The translations under genes and the position numbers were made by a program. Source: a virus. From it: 33,346 nt of DNA. Numbering within the stretch: the first letter of the stretch is position 1; every line of letters begins with the position of its first letter. Location of the stretch: positions 1 through 33,346 of the IMG/VR virus record IMGVR_UViG_3300032607_000642; one strand, 5' to 3'. A model generated the notes under the pieces. It was given only the letters and a program-made list of their open reading frames with translations. It was not told the DNA's origin and did not search any database. Shown here piece by piece: positions 7,259 through 15,857 of the stretch.

Positions 7259-8425
7259 ATGCAAATAAAAGAAGAGTTTAAAAAGTTGATCCCCGAATTG
7301 ACAAAAGAAGAATTTAAGCAATTAGAAGATAATTGTTTAGCCGAAGGAATAAGAGAGAAAATAATACTTTGGAATGGTTTTATAATCGACGGGCATAACC
7401 GTTTTGAAATTGCTACTCGTTGGGGTTTAGATTATCAAACAGAAACTAAAAAATTTGATAATGAAAATGATGTTAAAATTTGGATGGTTAACAATCAATT
7501 TGGCCGCAGAAATTTACAAGACTTTGTAAGAGGTGAATTAATGCAAATACTTGAAGAATTAACTAAAGAAAAGGGTGAAAAGGTTTATAAGGAAAAAGCA
7601 TTTTTTAAAGGCAATCAACATTCTGCTCCGTTGTCAATAGTTGACAACGAACCAAAACATAACACAAGAGAAATTATAGCTGAAAAGCTTGGATGGAGTA
7701 CAGGAAAAAAGGCTCAATTTGATGTAGTAGCTAAAAAAGCACCAGAAGAAGTAAAAGTACAATTAAGATCAGGCGAAGTTACTATAAACCAAGTTTATCA
7801 AGATATCAAGAAAGAGGAAAAGAAAGCCTTTAGAGTTGAATTAATTGAGCAACAGATAGAAGATATTGAACTTGGATTATTACCCGAATTGGAAGGCTTA
7901 TTTGATGTTATTTCGGTTGATCCACCTTGGCCATACGAAGGAGAAAACAAAAATATAACATCATTTGATTCAGTAGGCAGAAGGGTTGCAAATCCATACC
8001 CCGAAATGAGCATTGAAGATATAAAAAACATTGAAATGCCTTTGATGGATGATGCAGTTATTTTGCTTTGGACTACTCATAAATTTCTTCCAGATGCTTT
8101 TGAAATATTAAAAGATTGGGGAATGGATTACAAAGCTACACTCGTTTGGAATAAGGAAAAAATGGGTATGGGTGCTTGGTTTAGAATGCAATGTGAATTC
8201 TGTATAGTGGGAGTAAAAGGGAAACCATATTGGGAAAACACAACCTTTAGAGATATTCTAAACGAACCAAGAAGGGAACACTCAAGAAAGCCTGATTCGT
8301 TCTTTGAAATGATTGAAAAAATAACTCTTGGAAGAAGGTTAGAGTATTTCAGCAGAGAAAGAAGAGAAGGGTGGGAAGTTTTCGGAAATGATATAGAAAA
8401 ATTTGCTTATGAATTGGGAAGATAG
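7259..8425 (+). CDS. ParB-like domain fused to MT-A70 adenine methyltransferase
   Basis: 388 aa. Residues 1-80 are a ParB/Srx-like region with I-I-D-G-H-N-R at 42-48. The middle (about 85-200) is helical and may bind DNA. The C-terminal domain carries the MT-A70 motif D221-P-P-W224, the catalytic signature of N6-adenine methyltransferases, plus a C-terminal R-R-L-E-Y-F-S-R-E-R-R-E-G-W. Such phage enzymes methylate adenine in DNA, either to escape host restriction or as the modification half of a restriction pair. The next gene, read 17 bases inside this one, is a PD-(D/E)XK nuclease. The ParB-like head is recurrent in phage methylases and may guide site choice. Confidence 0.85.
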   Translation: MQIKEEFKKLIPELTKEEFKQLEDNCLAEGIREKIILWNGFIIDGHNRFEIATRWGLDYQTETKKFDNENDVKIWMVNNQFGRRNLQDFVRGELMQILEELTKEKGEKVYKEKAFFKGNQHSAPLSIVDNEPKHNTREIIAEKLGWSTGKKAQFDVVAKKAPEEVKVQLRSGEVTINQVYQDIKKEEKKAFRVELIEQQIEDIELGLLPELEGLFDVISVDPPWPYEGENKNITSFDSVGRRVANPYPEMSIEDIKNIEMPLMDDAVILLWTTHKFLPDAFEILKDWGMDYKATLVWNKEKMGMGAWFRMQCEFCIVGVKGKPYWENTTFRDILNEPRREHSRKPDSFFEMIEKITLGRRLEYFSRERREGWEVFGNDIEKFAYELGR

Positions 8426-9095: not shown

Positions 9096-9532
9096 TGAAA
9101 AAAGTCGAAATAACAACATCGGTAAAAAACGGAAAATTTACACGCAATCGTACAATCGTTTTACAAGCCATTAATTCCTTTAATAATGCCGATGTTGTTT
9201 TGACTTTTGATAAGCCGAAAAAGAAAAGAAGCAACAATCAAAATTCTTTTTATTGGGGGGTATTAATCCCCTTAATGCAATCAGGAGCAAAGGATTTATG
9301 GGGCGAAGTTTGGAGCATCGATAAAGCACACAAACACCTTTCAAATCTATTCGTATTTCACGAGAGCGTAAATGAAAAAACGGGTGAAATCACCCAAACC
9401 CCAAAATCAACTACAGAATTAACTACAACGGGTTGGGAGGTATTTATGACTGAAATTAGAATTTACTTATTAGAAAATTTTGACATAAACGCACCCGAGC
9501 CAAACCAAATAACAACACTAAATTTTGACTAA
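9095..9532 (+). CDS. ninB: NinB-like recombination protein
   Basis: 145 aa. It has the K-x-K-R-S-N-N-Q-N-x-x-Y-W segment (about residues 43-54), and later W-E-V-F-M-T-E-I-R-I-Y-L, in keeping with the lambda NinB (Orf) family. Those proteins bind single-stranded DNA and can replace RecFOR functions in phage recombination. The neighbouring gene is NinG-like, as in the lambda nin region, which strengthens the call. It overlaps NinG by 8 bases. The match was made by eye and is moderate. Confidence 0.65.
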   Translation: MKKVEITTSVKNGKFTRNRTIVLQAINSFNNADVVLTFDKPKKKRSNNQNSFYWGVLIPLMQSGAKDLWGEVWSIDKAHKHLSNLFVFHESVNEKTGEITQTPKSTTELTTTGWEVFMTEIRIYLLENFDINAPEPNQITTLNFD

Positions 9533-10079
9533 AGAACCAAAGCCAAGGCGGTGCAAAGTTTGCGAAAATATTTTCATTCCTCAAAGATTTATGCAAACAA
9601 CTTGTGGTTACAAATGTGCCATCAAACACGCTCACACAATCAAAGCAAACAAGATTAAAGCCGATTGGCGAATCGAAAAGAAAGCTTTAACCGAAAAATT
9701 AAAAACTTTAGGACAATACGAAGCGGATGCTAAAAAATCCTTTCAAAAGTGGGTACGATTGCGGGATGCAGACCATAACTGTATAAGCTGCGGAGGAGTT
9801 GATAAGGATTTGTGGGATGGTGGACATTTTAAAAAAGCCGAAATCTATTCGGGGGTAATATTCAACCCCGCAAACTGCCACAAACAATGCCGAAAATGCA
9901 ACCGATTTATGAACGGAAATGAGTTGATGTATCGAGAAGGATTAATTGCAAGATACGGTTTAGAATATACCGAGAATATTGAAAGGTTAGCCAATGAAAC
10001 AAGGCAGCACAAGTTTAGTAAGGAGGAATTAATAGCAAAAAAATTACAATACGATTTATTGATTAAAGAATTTAAATGA
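9525..10079 (+). CDS. ninG: NinG-like zinc-binding recombination protein
   Basis: 184 aa from a TTG at 9525. The next Met would remove the first zinc site, so the TTG start is needed. Site one is C10-x-x-C13 with C27 and C31. Site two is H-N-C-I-S-C-G-G followed by W-D-G-G-H-F and N-C-H-K-Q-C-R-K-C-N-R-F. This is the NinG arrangement, related to HNH folds; lambda NinG (Rap) resolves branched recombination intermediates. It overlaps the NinB-like gene by 8 bases. Confidence 0.85.
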   Translation: MTKEPKPRRCKVCENIFIPQRFMQTTCGYKCAIKHAHTIKANKIKADWRIEKKALTEKLKTLGQYEADAKKSFQKWVRLRDADHNCISCGGVDKDLWDGGHFKKAEIYSGVIFNPANCHKQCRKCNRFMNGNELMYREGLIARYGLEYTENIERLANETRQHKFSKEELIAKKLQYDLLIKEFK

Positions 10080-13919: not shown

Positions 13920-14303
13920 ATGAAAACTGCAAAACAACTAAAAGAAGAAAAAAGACAGACTTTTCTAAAACCCAATCAAATCAATGTGAATTTGATTAAA
14001 AAACTTGATAAGTTACCGACTGGAGAAATTGTAATAGCAATTAACATCGAAAAAAAACATACTTGGATAGTTTGCGATTCAGGAAAGACTTATAAGTCTA
14101 CCCATAATATGATTAACAATGAAATGATTAGTTATATAGAGTTTGAAAACCGTGGAGGTAAACGTGAAAGTGCTGGAGCAAAGCCAAAATACAACGAGCC
14201 AACAAAAACAACTGCCTTTCGTATTCCTATATCTAAAATCGATGAAGTCAAAAAGTTAGTCATAGAATTTTTGGCAAGTTACGAGAGGGAAAATAACCTA
14301 TAA
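13920..14303 (+). CDS. Small protein with a GxKP-type basic tail
   Basis: 127 aa. The N-terminal 80 residues are a beta-rich domain (G-E-I-V-I-A-I-N-I-E-K-K-H-T-W-I-V-C). The tail carries G-G-K-R-E-S-A-G-A-K-P-K-Y, close to the GGxRxGAGRKPK motif found at the head of many small DNA-binding phage proteins, then T-T-A-F-R-I-P-I-S-K-I-D-E-V-K-K-L, which resembles a ribbon-helix-helix start. Probably a DNA-binding regulator paired with the preceding gene. The stop codon lies within the first attC-like arm. Confidence 0.55.
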   Translation: MKTAKQLKEEKRQTFLKPNQINVNLIKKLDKLPTGEIVIAINIEKKHTWIVCDSGKTYKSTHNMINNEMISYIEFENRGGKRESAGAKPKYNEPTKTTAFRIPISKIDEVKKLVIEFLASYERENNL

Positions 14304-14330
14304 CGTCCTGCCGCTTTGCTTAGTGCGGGA
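14297..14330 (+). other. attC-like left arm 1
   Basis: CTATAACGTC directly at the stop codon of the preceding gene, followed by TCCTGC (14306-14311) that can pair with GCGGGA (14325-14330). The matching right arm expected for a complete attC is missing, so this would be a truncated site. The remaining 36 bases to the next ATG are plain AT-rich leader. Confidence 0.35.
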
Positions 14331-14366
14331 TTTAGAACTACAAAATTTAATAATTAAAAACAAAAT

Positions 14367-14612
14367 ATGATGGAAAACGATAAAACACAAAAACCCGCAT
14401 TGAGCAAAACGGCTGTTATGCCTCGTTGTTCTACTTGCTACTTTTGGAATCAAAATTCTTTTTTTGATTATGAAAACGTGGTTAATTCGGGGACTTGTAG
14501 AGAGTTGAAAATGAAAATAGACTTTGTTTATTTCCCAGAACGAATTGATGGTTTTGTTGACAAAATAGAAACAGAAGGAGATTTCGGATGCGTATTACAT
14601 AAATCGATATAA
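14367..14612 (+). CDS. Small Cys-motif protein, candidate cassette gene
   Basis: 81 aa. C-S-T-C-Y-F-W near residues 21-27, G-T-C-R-E-L in the middle and D-F-G-C-V-L-H at the end give four Cys and a His, like a small metal-binding protein. I recall phage and plasmid proteins of this pattern with unknown function. Either of two adjacent ATG codons could start it. It is placed between two attC-like arms. Confidence 0.55.
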   Translation: MMENDKTQKPALSKTAVMPRCSTCYFWNQNSFFDYENVVNSGTCRELKMKIDFVYFPERIDGFVDKIETEGDFGCVLHKSI

Positions 14613-14614
14613 AT

Positions 14615-14857
14615 ATGGAATTTAAAACTAAAGAATACCCAGAAGGAGAAGAAGTTGTAATTAATGAAATTATGGTAAATTATTCTCAAATAAATGAAAC
14701 TGATAGCGATGAAGATAATCATTTAAAAATATCAATTTGTCATCAAGGAGCAGGATTTTATTACGTAATGGAAACCACAAGATGGTCTTTCAATGATATT
14801 GCAGAATTAGACCAACTTTTGGCAGATTTTAAAGCTAAAGCGAATATTTCTGAATGA
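14615..14857 (+). CDS. Small acidic protein, unknown
   Basis: 80 aa, strongly acidic, with a beta-rich middle (H-L-K-I-S-I-C-H-Q-G-A-G-F-Y-Y-V-M-E) and a helical C-terminus with a D-I-A-E-L-D-Q-L-L pattern. It follows the Cys-motif gene by 2 bases. An attC-like arm begins directly after its stop. Function unknown. Confidence 0.55.
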   Translation: MEFKTKEYPEGEEVVINEIMVNYSQINETDSDEDNHLKISICHQGAGFYYVMETTRWSFNDIAELDQLLADFKAKANISE

Positions 14858-14891
14858 GGCATAACGGTATCGCATTGTCGTCAGGTGGCGA
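14857..14891 (+). other. attC-like left arm 2
   Basis: GGCATAACGGTATCGC begins just after the stop codon at 14855-14857, then GTCG (14878-14881) can pair with CGAC (14889-14892). It shares ATAACG with arm 1 (14299-14304). No right arm is seen before the next gene. Confidence 0.35.
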
Positions 14892-14925
14892 CCAAATAAA
14901 TAACTAATTTTTAAATTAAAGACAG

Positions 14926-15381
14926 ATGAAACCAAGTACAAAACCAAAATTACCCAAAGCCAAAACCGCCACTTGCGACAATGCAGTGTTAGCAAATCGG
15001 TTTAACATAGATTTCTTCGAGTTCAGTTTTTTAGTTGAAGCCTGCATTCCTCCAAGACCAATTGCAAGAGCGATGTTTTGGGATGATGTGATAAATAAAC
15101 ATTATCATACTTTGACAACGAATGAACGTGAAAAACTATTTGAATGGGTAAATAGATGTTCAGGAATGGAACACGGACTTGAAATAAAAAATGAAGATTG
15201 TCTATTGTTTAATGCTCGTTTTGATAAAGAAAATCAATACGAAGTAGAAACAAAATATAATAGCATAACCGAAAATCATAGAGTTTTCAAATGGCAGGGT
15301 AAATATCATATTTCAAAAACTCAATCCGTTAACGAAGATTATATTGTCGAGGTAACGAAAGTTTCTGAAACTGTTTGCTAA
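14926..15381 (+). CDS. Conserved phage protein of unknown function
   Basis: 151 aa. Notable segments are F-L-V-E-A-C-I-P-P-R-P-I-A-R-A-M-F-W near residues 38-56, E-R-E-K-L-F-E-W-V-N, and N-A-R-F-D-K-E-N-Q-Y. These look conserved: I recall similar proteins in other flavobacterial phages, always next to replication or accessory genes. No catalytic motif is visible. Its stop codon lies inside the left arm of the complete attC-like site that follows. Confidence 0.6.
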   Translation: MKPSTKPKLPKAKTATCDNAVLANRFNIDFFEFSFLVEACIPPRPIARAMFWDDVINKHYHTLTTNEREKLFEWVNRCSGMEHGLEIKNEDCLLFNARFDKENQYEVETKYNSITENHRVFKWQGKYHISKTQSVNEDYIVEVTKVSETVC

Positions 15382-15507
15382 TGCCCGATGCTTTACGTCC
15401 GTTGTGGAAAAACAAGCCTAGTGATTCAGATTAACCAATACATAAAGACAAACCAAAACATTAAAAATTAACCCTAAACCCACAATGGCGTAAAACATTT
15501 GTTAGCC
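15377..15507 (+). other. Complete attC-like site
   Basis: Left arm 15377-15407 and right arm 15480-15506 are imperfect reverse complements: GCTAA/TTAGC, ATG/CAT, TTTACG/CGTAAA and TTGTGG/CCACAA pair in order with unpaired bases between them, around a 72-base AT-rich loop. GTTAGCC at 15501-15507 resembles the R' box of integron attC sites (GTTRRRY) except for one position. The arrangement of paired boxes, extra-helical bases and a variable loop, directly after a stop codon, is what an attC site looks like. It could also be a long imperfect hairpin of another kind. Confidence 0.45.
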
Positions 15508-15843
15508 GTTCGGTTTTTAAAATTACAATTATGTTTGAAATTGGAGAAAAAGTGATTTGTATTAATAATTCAATGCAACCACATACGATTGAAGAATTGA
15601 AAAAAGATATGCCTAATTGGCTTAAAAAATATGAAAAGTACACTATTAGAGGTTTTACTTCTAACAATGGAATAGTTGATGGTCTTTGGCTCGAAGAAAT
15701 TAAAAACGATTACAAATTTTTCAGGTTAATAGACAAATTTCAAGAACCAGCATTTGCTTTATGGCGTTTCAGAAAATTAGAACCTGCTGAAATTCAAATG
15801 GAAGTTGTCGAATATGCGAATGTTGCGTAAACTGACGGCTAAC
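15501..15843. repeat. Nine-base inverted repeat bounding one gene
   Basis: GTTAGCCGT at 15501-15509 and its exact reverse complement ACGGCTAAC at 15835-15843 flank the 99-aa gene at 15531-15830. Together they would be the two ends of a single cassette. Confidence 0.6.
15531..15830 (+). CDS. Small F-x-x-W-R-F-R-K-L protein, candidate cassette gene
   Basis: 99 aa. F-E-I-G-E-K-V-I-C-I-N-N at the start resembles the first strand of an SH3-like fold. It is followed by Y-T-I-R-G-F-T, G-L-W-L-E-E-I and F-A-L-W-R-F-R-K-L. I recall this pattern from many short phage and cassette proteins of unknown function. It is enclosed by the inverted repeats GTTAGCCGT/ACGGCTAAC, so it reads as one mobile unit. 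Confidence 0.6.
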   Translation: MFEIGEKVICINNSMQPHTIEELKKDMPNWLKKYEKYTIRGFTSNNGIVDGLWLEEIKNDYKFFRLIDKFQEPAFALWRFRKLEPAEIQMEVVEYANVA

Positions 15844-15857
15844 TCGTTGCTAATAGC
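15835..15857 (+). other. attC-like left arm 4
   Basis: ACGGCTAAC followed by TCG and TTGCTAAT (15847-15854); the latter repeats the TTGCTAAT at 15375-15382 at the start of the complete attC-like site. No right arm is found before the next gene. Confidence 0.35.

Follow-up and report, generated by a model that had tools for sequence, protein, structure and literature searches.

The DNA analysed here, a viral stretch of 33,346 nucleotides (IMG/VR record IMGVR_UViG_3300032607_000642, referred to below as the window), carries a run of small accessory genes separated by sequences that resemble the attC recombination sites of integrons, which raises the question whether these are remnants of captured cassettes or a mobile array, and by means of which enzyme the latter might be moved. 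The run is followed by a small gene, referred to as the anchor, and by the terminase genes of a phage of Bacteroidota, probably one infecting Flavobacteria. Comparison of this region with related phage and chromosomal sequences makes it highly likely that the locus is an integrase-less (CALIN-type) array of three mobile cassettes at a fixed acceptor, for which we propose a mechanism with a recombinase acting in trans. The positions of the features are collected in Table 1.

Table 1. Features of the window, given in window coordinates.
Feature	Start	End	Strand	Remarks
Phage-type tyrosine integrase, 402 aa	2311	3519	-	Pfam PF00589, 6e-10
Cassette unit 1 (attC 1, 81-aa and 80-aa ORFs)	14304	14864	+	boundaries inferred from TAA^C crossover
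attC-type site 1	14302	14417	+	cmsearch E 2e-5 (chromosomal-attC model); duplex -34 kcal/mol
81-aa cassette ORF	14367	14612	+	translation start within attC 1 loop
80-aa cassette ORF	14615	14857	+	ORF call
Cassette unit 2 (attC 2, 151-aa ORF)	14865	15381	+	boundaries inferred
attC-type site 2	14863	14990	+	cmsearch E 3.6e-6; duplex about -33 to -34 kcal/mol
151-aa cassette ORF	14926	15381	+	start codon within attC 2 loop
Cassette unit 3 (attC 3, 99-aa ORF)	15382	15842	+	boundaries inferred
attC-type site 3	15380	15503	+	cmsearch E 2.3e-4; duplex -25 kcal/mol; FCL-2 homology
99-aa cassette ORF	15531	15830	+	own start, 28 nt past right core
Acceptor (attI-like), TAAC-N21-GTATTAC	15840	15871	-	bounds array; no attC
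Anchor gene, 60 aa, PHROG 25647	15897	16079	+	weak matches to small DNA-binding/antitoxin families

A scan for long-loop stems that start with TAAC or TAAT and end in GTTA, together with direct reading of the DNA, identified three attC-type sites in the window, all of them complete. The original prediction had placed four left arms after gene stops and regarded three of them as single arms, in captured or decayed cassettes; their positions were right, but two of these three sites are in fact complete: their right arms fall within the following ORF and had been missed for that reason. In site 1 the left core TAACG begins at 14301 and the right arm (about 14395-14418) lies within the 81-aa ORF, in site 2 TAACG begins at 14862 and the right arm (about 14967-14991) lies within the 151-aa ORF, and in both the loop contains the start codon of the ORF concerned. 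The fourth arm (15835-15850) has no partner arm and is the acceptor site rather than an attC. The arms of site 3 (15377-15507) pair exactly as had been described, by GCTAA/TTAGC, ATG/CAT, TTTACG/CGTAAA and TTGTGG/CCACAA. Its left core reads TAAT (15379-15383) as compared to TAAC in the other window sites, a possibly inactivating C-to-T change, and site 3 may be inactive. Folded alone, it is not better than shuffled sequences (z -1.0); its homologue in Flavobacterium phage FCL-2 is (z -2.7).

In order to assess the attC-type identity of the sites, we employed a covariance model whose 33 training sites, all attC-like, come exclusively from Flavobacteriaceae chromosomes, in place of the IntegronFinder model that had been proposed for this purpose. 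This independent model ranks the three sites first in the window (E 3.6e-6 to 2.3e-4; next best 0.05); the sites exceed chance, in line with the identity first suggested for them. Across 37 phage loci, which had been chosen for arrays, acceptors or recombinase, the model gave 74 matches at E<=0.01, while 259 kb of array-free phage loci gave none at this threshold. A duplex scan of the + strand places the same three sites on top (-34, -34 and -25 kcal/mol; next best there -20), and in each of them paired R and L boxes form a single imperfect stem enclosing a variable loop. The stem of the model itself is 97% paired, and 13 of its 16 stem pairs show compensatory changes in the chromosomal set, a count that is partly circular as the chromosomal sites were selected by stem energy, whereas the test on the window is not circular. 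On the TAACG-to-GTTA strand of the chromosomal sites one G-T wobble never varies, which points to this strand as the one that would fold. Unpaired bases inside the stem favour neither arm consistently (24 and 21 sites, with 43 equal), and in 69 of 88 sites the longer spacer side is that of the TAACG arm; an early idea of inverted attC polarity, based on extra bases in the left arm, was dropped as the unpaired stem bases have no side bias.

To examine other genes at the same junctions had been suggested as a check, and related phages indeed carry different ones there. Over 150 nt, the element containing site 3 matches an intergenic element of phage FCL-2 at 73% identity, and it occurs in further viral contigs (pattern matches L036-L042) as well as in one Flavobacteriaceae MAG contig; the gene that follows it differs almost every time, and one FCL-2 gene located before the element there is found after the element in contig L037. 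The most similar phage comparable over the array region (L003, terminase 86% identical) has the same 60-aa anchor and acceptor type combined with other cassettes. The F. psychrophilum phages 6H, 2A, 23T, FPSV-D15, D17, D35 and F7 are near-identical past the anchor, and with the exception of D15 and D17 their arrays differ. As these arrays differ between otherwise near-identical phages, the exchange must be recent.

All these arrays end at a similar boundary. The spacing of the acceptor is conserved in about 20 phages, and the DNA to the left of its TAAC differs among them. It lies directly left of the anchor gene in the window, in L002 and L003, in several of L072-L081 and in the F. psychrophilum phages, while in FCL-2 the same acceptor site adjoins an unrelated gene. 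The anchor gene itself is conserved in L003, in the F. psychrophilum phages and in Polaribacter phage P12002S, where the homolog of the window's anchor lies beside an array whose sites are matched by the chromosomal model.

The attC sites had been assigned to the gene whose stop codon precedes them, and here the comparison of related phages reverses the assignment. Among all loci, 38 distinct ends of shared blocks fall at TAACG or TAACT where about 0.3 would be expected, many of the 38 stemming from one phage genus, that of the F. psychrophilum phages. The clearest pair consists of FPSV-D15 and D35, which are 100% identical over two blocks of about 11.8 kb in total and otherwise one unit apart: the extra unit of D35 (390 bp) consists of an attC and, downstream, a gene of 225 bp, its join adjoins the acceptor, and the only sequence common to the join is TAACGT. 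As shared blocks start and stop at TAAC, and the D15/D35 join lies there as well, the unit comprises an attC and the gene downstream of it. In these comparisons, gain and loss of units take place at the TAAC core, either beside the acceptor or between units.

The two ends of a unit offer a further view of its boundaries. In 53% of 60 units they are complementary over at least 7 nt (usually 8-9 nt), whereas this holds for the ends of a single site in 6.7% and for random controls in 3.4%. In the window this applies to unit 1 (GTTATGCCTC and GAGGCATAAC), unit 2 (TTAGCAAA and TTTGCTAA) and unit 3 (GTTAGCCGT and ACGGCTAAC), the last pair being the sequences that had already been seen to flank the 99-aa gene. 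Such complementarity would be needed for a circular cassette to contain a complete attC, and the units thus combine the complementary ends of gene cassettes with their G^TT-core boundary, TAA^C being G^TTA on the other strand.

Canonical attC sites start with TAACA and end with CG^TTA. Read on the minus strand, outward from the acceptor, the phage sites have this canonical polarity (R'' TAACA.., R' ..CG^TTA), so that the TAA^C crossover corresponds to the canonical G^TTA. A canonical cassette has its gene pointing away from the acceptor and its attC at the 3' end; in the phages the attC is at the 5' end. In the 17 phage loci with recombinase, genes directed toward the acceptor account for 58,800 coding bases and those directed away for 4,965; in Flavobacteriaceae chromosomal arrays the corresponding figures are 11,103 toward and 62,301 away. 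Judged by these orientations, it is the gene and not the attC site that is reversed. This bears on the possibility that the units are ordinary bacterial integron cassettes (gene, then attC) captured once from the host, and passive and decayed ever since. The match of the sites to the chromosomal Flavobacteriaceae model, a phage without integron integrase and the TAAT core of site 3 would all be compatible with such an origin; however, the units break before the attC and not after it, as the D15/D35 junction illustrates, the genes of the phage units run opposite to those of chromosomal cassettes, near-identical phages have exchanged units recently, and some phages carry a recombinase and acceptor of their own. 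We consider a single passive capture unlikely.

Some breaks lie elsewhere than at the left core. Two genuine shared-block ends are near the right core instead, and others fall within attC bodies, for example immediately after ..ATAATTTCGGCTGG in 6H, 2A, 23T and D15, which suggests that homologous recombination between attCs also contributes. The breaks within attC bodies are likewise what would be seen if all exchange went through homologous or illegitimate phage recombination via repeated attC DNA, with sites that are not recombinase substrates, but this is very improbable given the 38 block ends at the TAAC core, a D15/D35 join that has TAACGT alone in common, and an acceptor that lacks an attC body, yet is always the boundary. 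Hybrid attC bodies around ..ATAATTTCGGCTGG.. are seen in 6H, 2A, 23T and FPSV-D15 (L086-L090). A role of the stems as transcription terminators or hairpins of regulatory RNA, intergenic by position only, is hardly credible. Although they lie between genes on the strand that is transcribed, and two of them extend over translation starts, they have loops of about 70 nt and fixed TAAC/GTTA ends, a Rfam scan of the region returned no significant match, the complementarity links the ends of one cassette and not of one site, and the stems correlate with cassette exchange and with the recombinase. RF01765, considered as a possible attC family, was rejected as an unrelated RNA (srg1).

Start codons also occur within attC loops. 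Of 88 distinct sites, 32 have in their loop a start codon from which the frame stays open for at least 30 codons beyond the right core, compared to 13.7 in loop-shuffled controls. In the 151-aa ORF an attC-encoded leader (MKPSTKPK..) makes up residues 1-21, and the sequence past G^TTA begins with residue 22; for 16 of 18 relatives, homology to this ORF sets in between residues 20 and 24. Homologs outside of arrays mostly have the native start MSRFNIDFF or similar. In cassettes this start is absent: the gene begins with TTAGCAAATCGG (LANRFNIDFF), and the frame is opened by the ATG of the attC loop, with varying leaders. The loop start codons are probably in use, and in about a third of cassettes, where such a codon is in frame, the attC would thereby write the N-terminus of the gene. 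An early reading, in which the attC of one cassette provides the start codon to the next, was replaced, as D15 and D35 show attC and gene travelling together.

Regarding the enzyme, the view that the phage carries its cassette array without an integrase holds true, as no array recombinase is found in the window. Its phage-type integrase reaches 23.8 bits against TIGR02249 (cut-off 265) and does not belong to the array recombinase family, and a search of the window for the 267-aa recombinase introduced below gave no match at 1e-15. With three attC sites, where at least two define a CALIN, and no array recombinase, the window falls into this class; of the parts of a complete integron, acceptor and array are present and the recombinase is absent.

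A candidate for the missing enzyme is encoded in another contig (L038/L097), in which an array is followed by a gene for a 267-aa tyrosine recombinase. Relatives occur in 20 viral loci, with attC-like sites upstream wherever enough DNA is available there, and in all 19 loci examined (metagenomic phage) the recombinase start is preceded, at a distance of 46-55 nt, by the acceptor (c)TAACTACTATATGT or a sequence closely similar to it. Throughout the family the presumed catalytic arginine, histidine and tyrosine do not vary. The enzyme is closest to XerA/XerC-like enzymes, with PDB 4a8e, 5hxy and 1a0p as the nearest solved relatives. It scores 139.6 bits against TIGR02249, below the cut-off of 265 for an IntI, and at the position of the IntI-specific insertion it has about 32 aa compared to about 80 in IntI (2a3v), that is, about 50 aa fewer. 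No close relative (at least 60% identity) is found in 50,697 GenBank phages. An AlphaFold model of the recombinase was too poor (pLDDT 67.6, pTM 0.43) to serve as a basis for fold comparison. Relatives of the 151-aa family are cassettes in L054-L058, and in L056 and L102 the family occupies the cassette directly at the acceptor and recombinase, which ties the window array to the recombinase system. On the strength of this synteny, we infer that the 267-aa family moves the cassettes; it would presumably act in trans on the window array, with the folded strand as its probable substrate. Two viral contigs of about 362 kb (L113 and L116) also combine a recombinase of the 267-aa type, or a distant relative of it, with acceptor and attC sites, and the GenBank Polaribacter phages Freya_1 to Freya_10, isolates of one group that vary in length from 44 to 49 kb, encode a distantly related integrase.

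Homologs of the recombinase are frequent in host chromosomes, being present at E<=1e-25 in 212 of 299 Flavobacteriaceae genomes; the best matches among these enzymes of about 380 aa are about 40-48% identical to the phage enzyme. Attached 3' of the chromosomal recombinase gene, attC-like arrays were found in all of the first eight cases examined and in about 15 of 20 in a systematic sample, almost all sites pointing to the gene, whereas 19 control regions taken from these genomes together contained 14 sites. In many cases the stop codon of the recombinase gene is adjoined by a conserved acceptor of the (n)AACAATTGGATATAG type. Four chromosomal enzymes that were scanned pass the NCBI XerA/'integron integrase' model and fail TIGR02249. 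Searching the 299 genomes with TIGR02249 at 1e-60 gave no match, a weak negative since control genomes also gave none and since single chromosomal enzymes scored 3e-62 to 4e-60 in a direct scan, close to the threshold. Some Flavobacteriaceae chromosomes (L139-L166, e.g. L145 and L141) carry attC arrays of near-identical repeats beside XerA/IntI-like recombinases of about 380 aa, whose scores stay under the standard integron-integrase cut-off, and the genes of these arrays are oriented opposite to those of the phages.

As for the cargo, Pfam and PHROGs searches assigned no function to the cassette proteins of the window, the 81-aa protein having no match and the 80-aa protein no significant family match. 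Among 78 cassette proteins, in counts pooled over array loci (alignment A2), the recognisable families are mostly DNA modification enzymes (C5, N4/N6, MT-A70, Mom), others being RNA ligases and a PAPS-reductase-like protein. A counter-defence role of the cargo is plausible, and the predominance of DNA modification suggests that the arrays may serve to swap counter-defence genes. Outside of its array, the window encodes an MT-A70 adenine methyltransferase (7259-8425) and a NinG-like protein (9525-10079).

Taken together, we propose that the phage recombinase or a related host enzyme of about 380 aa acts in trans on the array, recognising the folded window-plus strand of the attC, which would correspond to the 'bottom strand' of integrons, and cutting at TAA^C (CG^TTA on the opposite strand), and that circular cassettes are thereby inserted at the acceptor or excised. 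Since the genes of phage cassettes have the opposite orientation to those of chromosomal cassettes, the attC lies at the 5' end of the gene. This would explain how Bacteroidota phages exchange accessory genes one at a time, by means of a fixed acceptor, attC-led cassettes and a recombinase kept in some phages only, and it predicts that a single attC acts as recombination site and translation start simultaneously. Going further, we lean towards the view that integrons driven by Xer-like enzymes form a class of their own, so far unrecognised and common to Bacteroidota and their phages, whose chromosomal form has its genes directed away from the acceptor and whose phage form is streamlined, with inverted cassettes and the attC as 5' leader and start codon, and that many phages may keep only acceptor and array and borrow the enzyme from a co-infecting phage or the host in order to trade counter-defence genes. 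The chromosomal Flavobacteriaceae arrays beside recombinases below the cut-off would in that case widen the known range of integrons.

Arrays of attC sites in phages have been described before. Qi 2023 (PMC9892861) reports CALINs in phages including Polaribacter phage P12002L, to which P12002S is related, and finds that class 1 IntI1 can recombine phage CALIN sites with a G|TT crossover. Its CALINs resemble the window in being attC arrays without integron integrase, in including one Bacteroidota phage and in carrying DNA methyltransferase cargo; it treats the attCs as conventional cassette sites, unlike the reading given here, and its main text reports no Bacteroidota phage recombinase, acceptor or attC-loop start codons. 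For Bacteroidetes, the IntegronFinder 2.0 paper lists In0 elements and a complete integron in Salinibacter. In the main texts of open-licence papers we found no description of a phage recombinase-acceptor module, inverted genes or loop start codons.

Compared with integrons such as class 1 and the Vibrio superintegron, the phage system likewise has a folding attC with R and L boxes and a G^TT core, an array growing from one acceptor, and an adjacent tyrosine recombinase gene transcribed away from the array. It differs in an enzyme that is Xer/XerA-like, without the IntI-specific insertion and below the TIGR02249 cut-off, and in cassette genes that point toward the acceptor. With Flavobacteriaceae chromosomal arrays it shares the attC family and a homologous recombinase, whereas the chromosomal array lies 3' of the recombinase gene, has genes pointing away and uses another acceptor sequence. 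Xer/XerA recombinases act on dif-type sites; the phage recombinase gene, in contrast, is tied to a cassette array. Phage CALINs as such are thus already published, while the recombinase-acceptor module, the reversed gene orientation and the starts in attC loops appear to be new.
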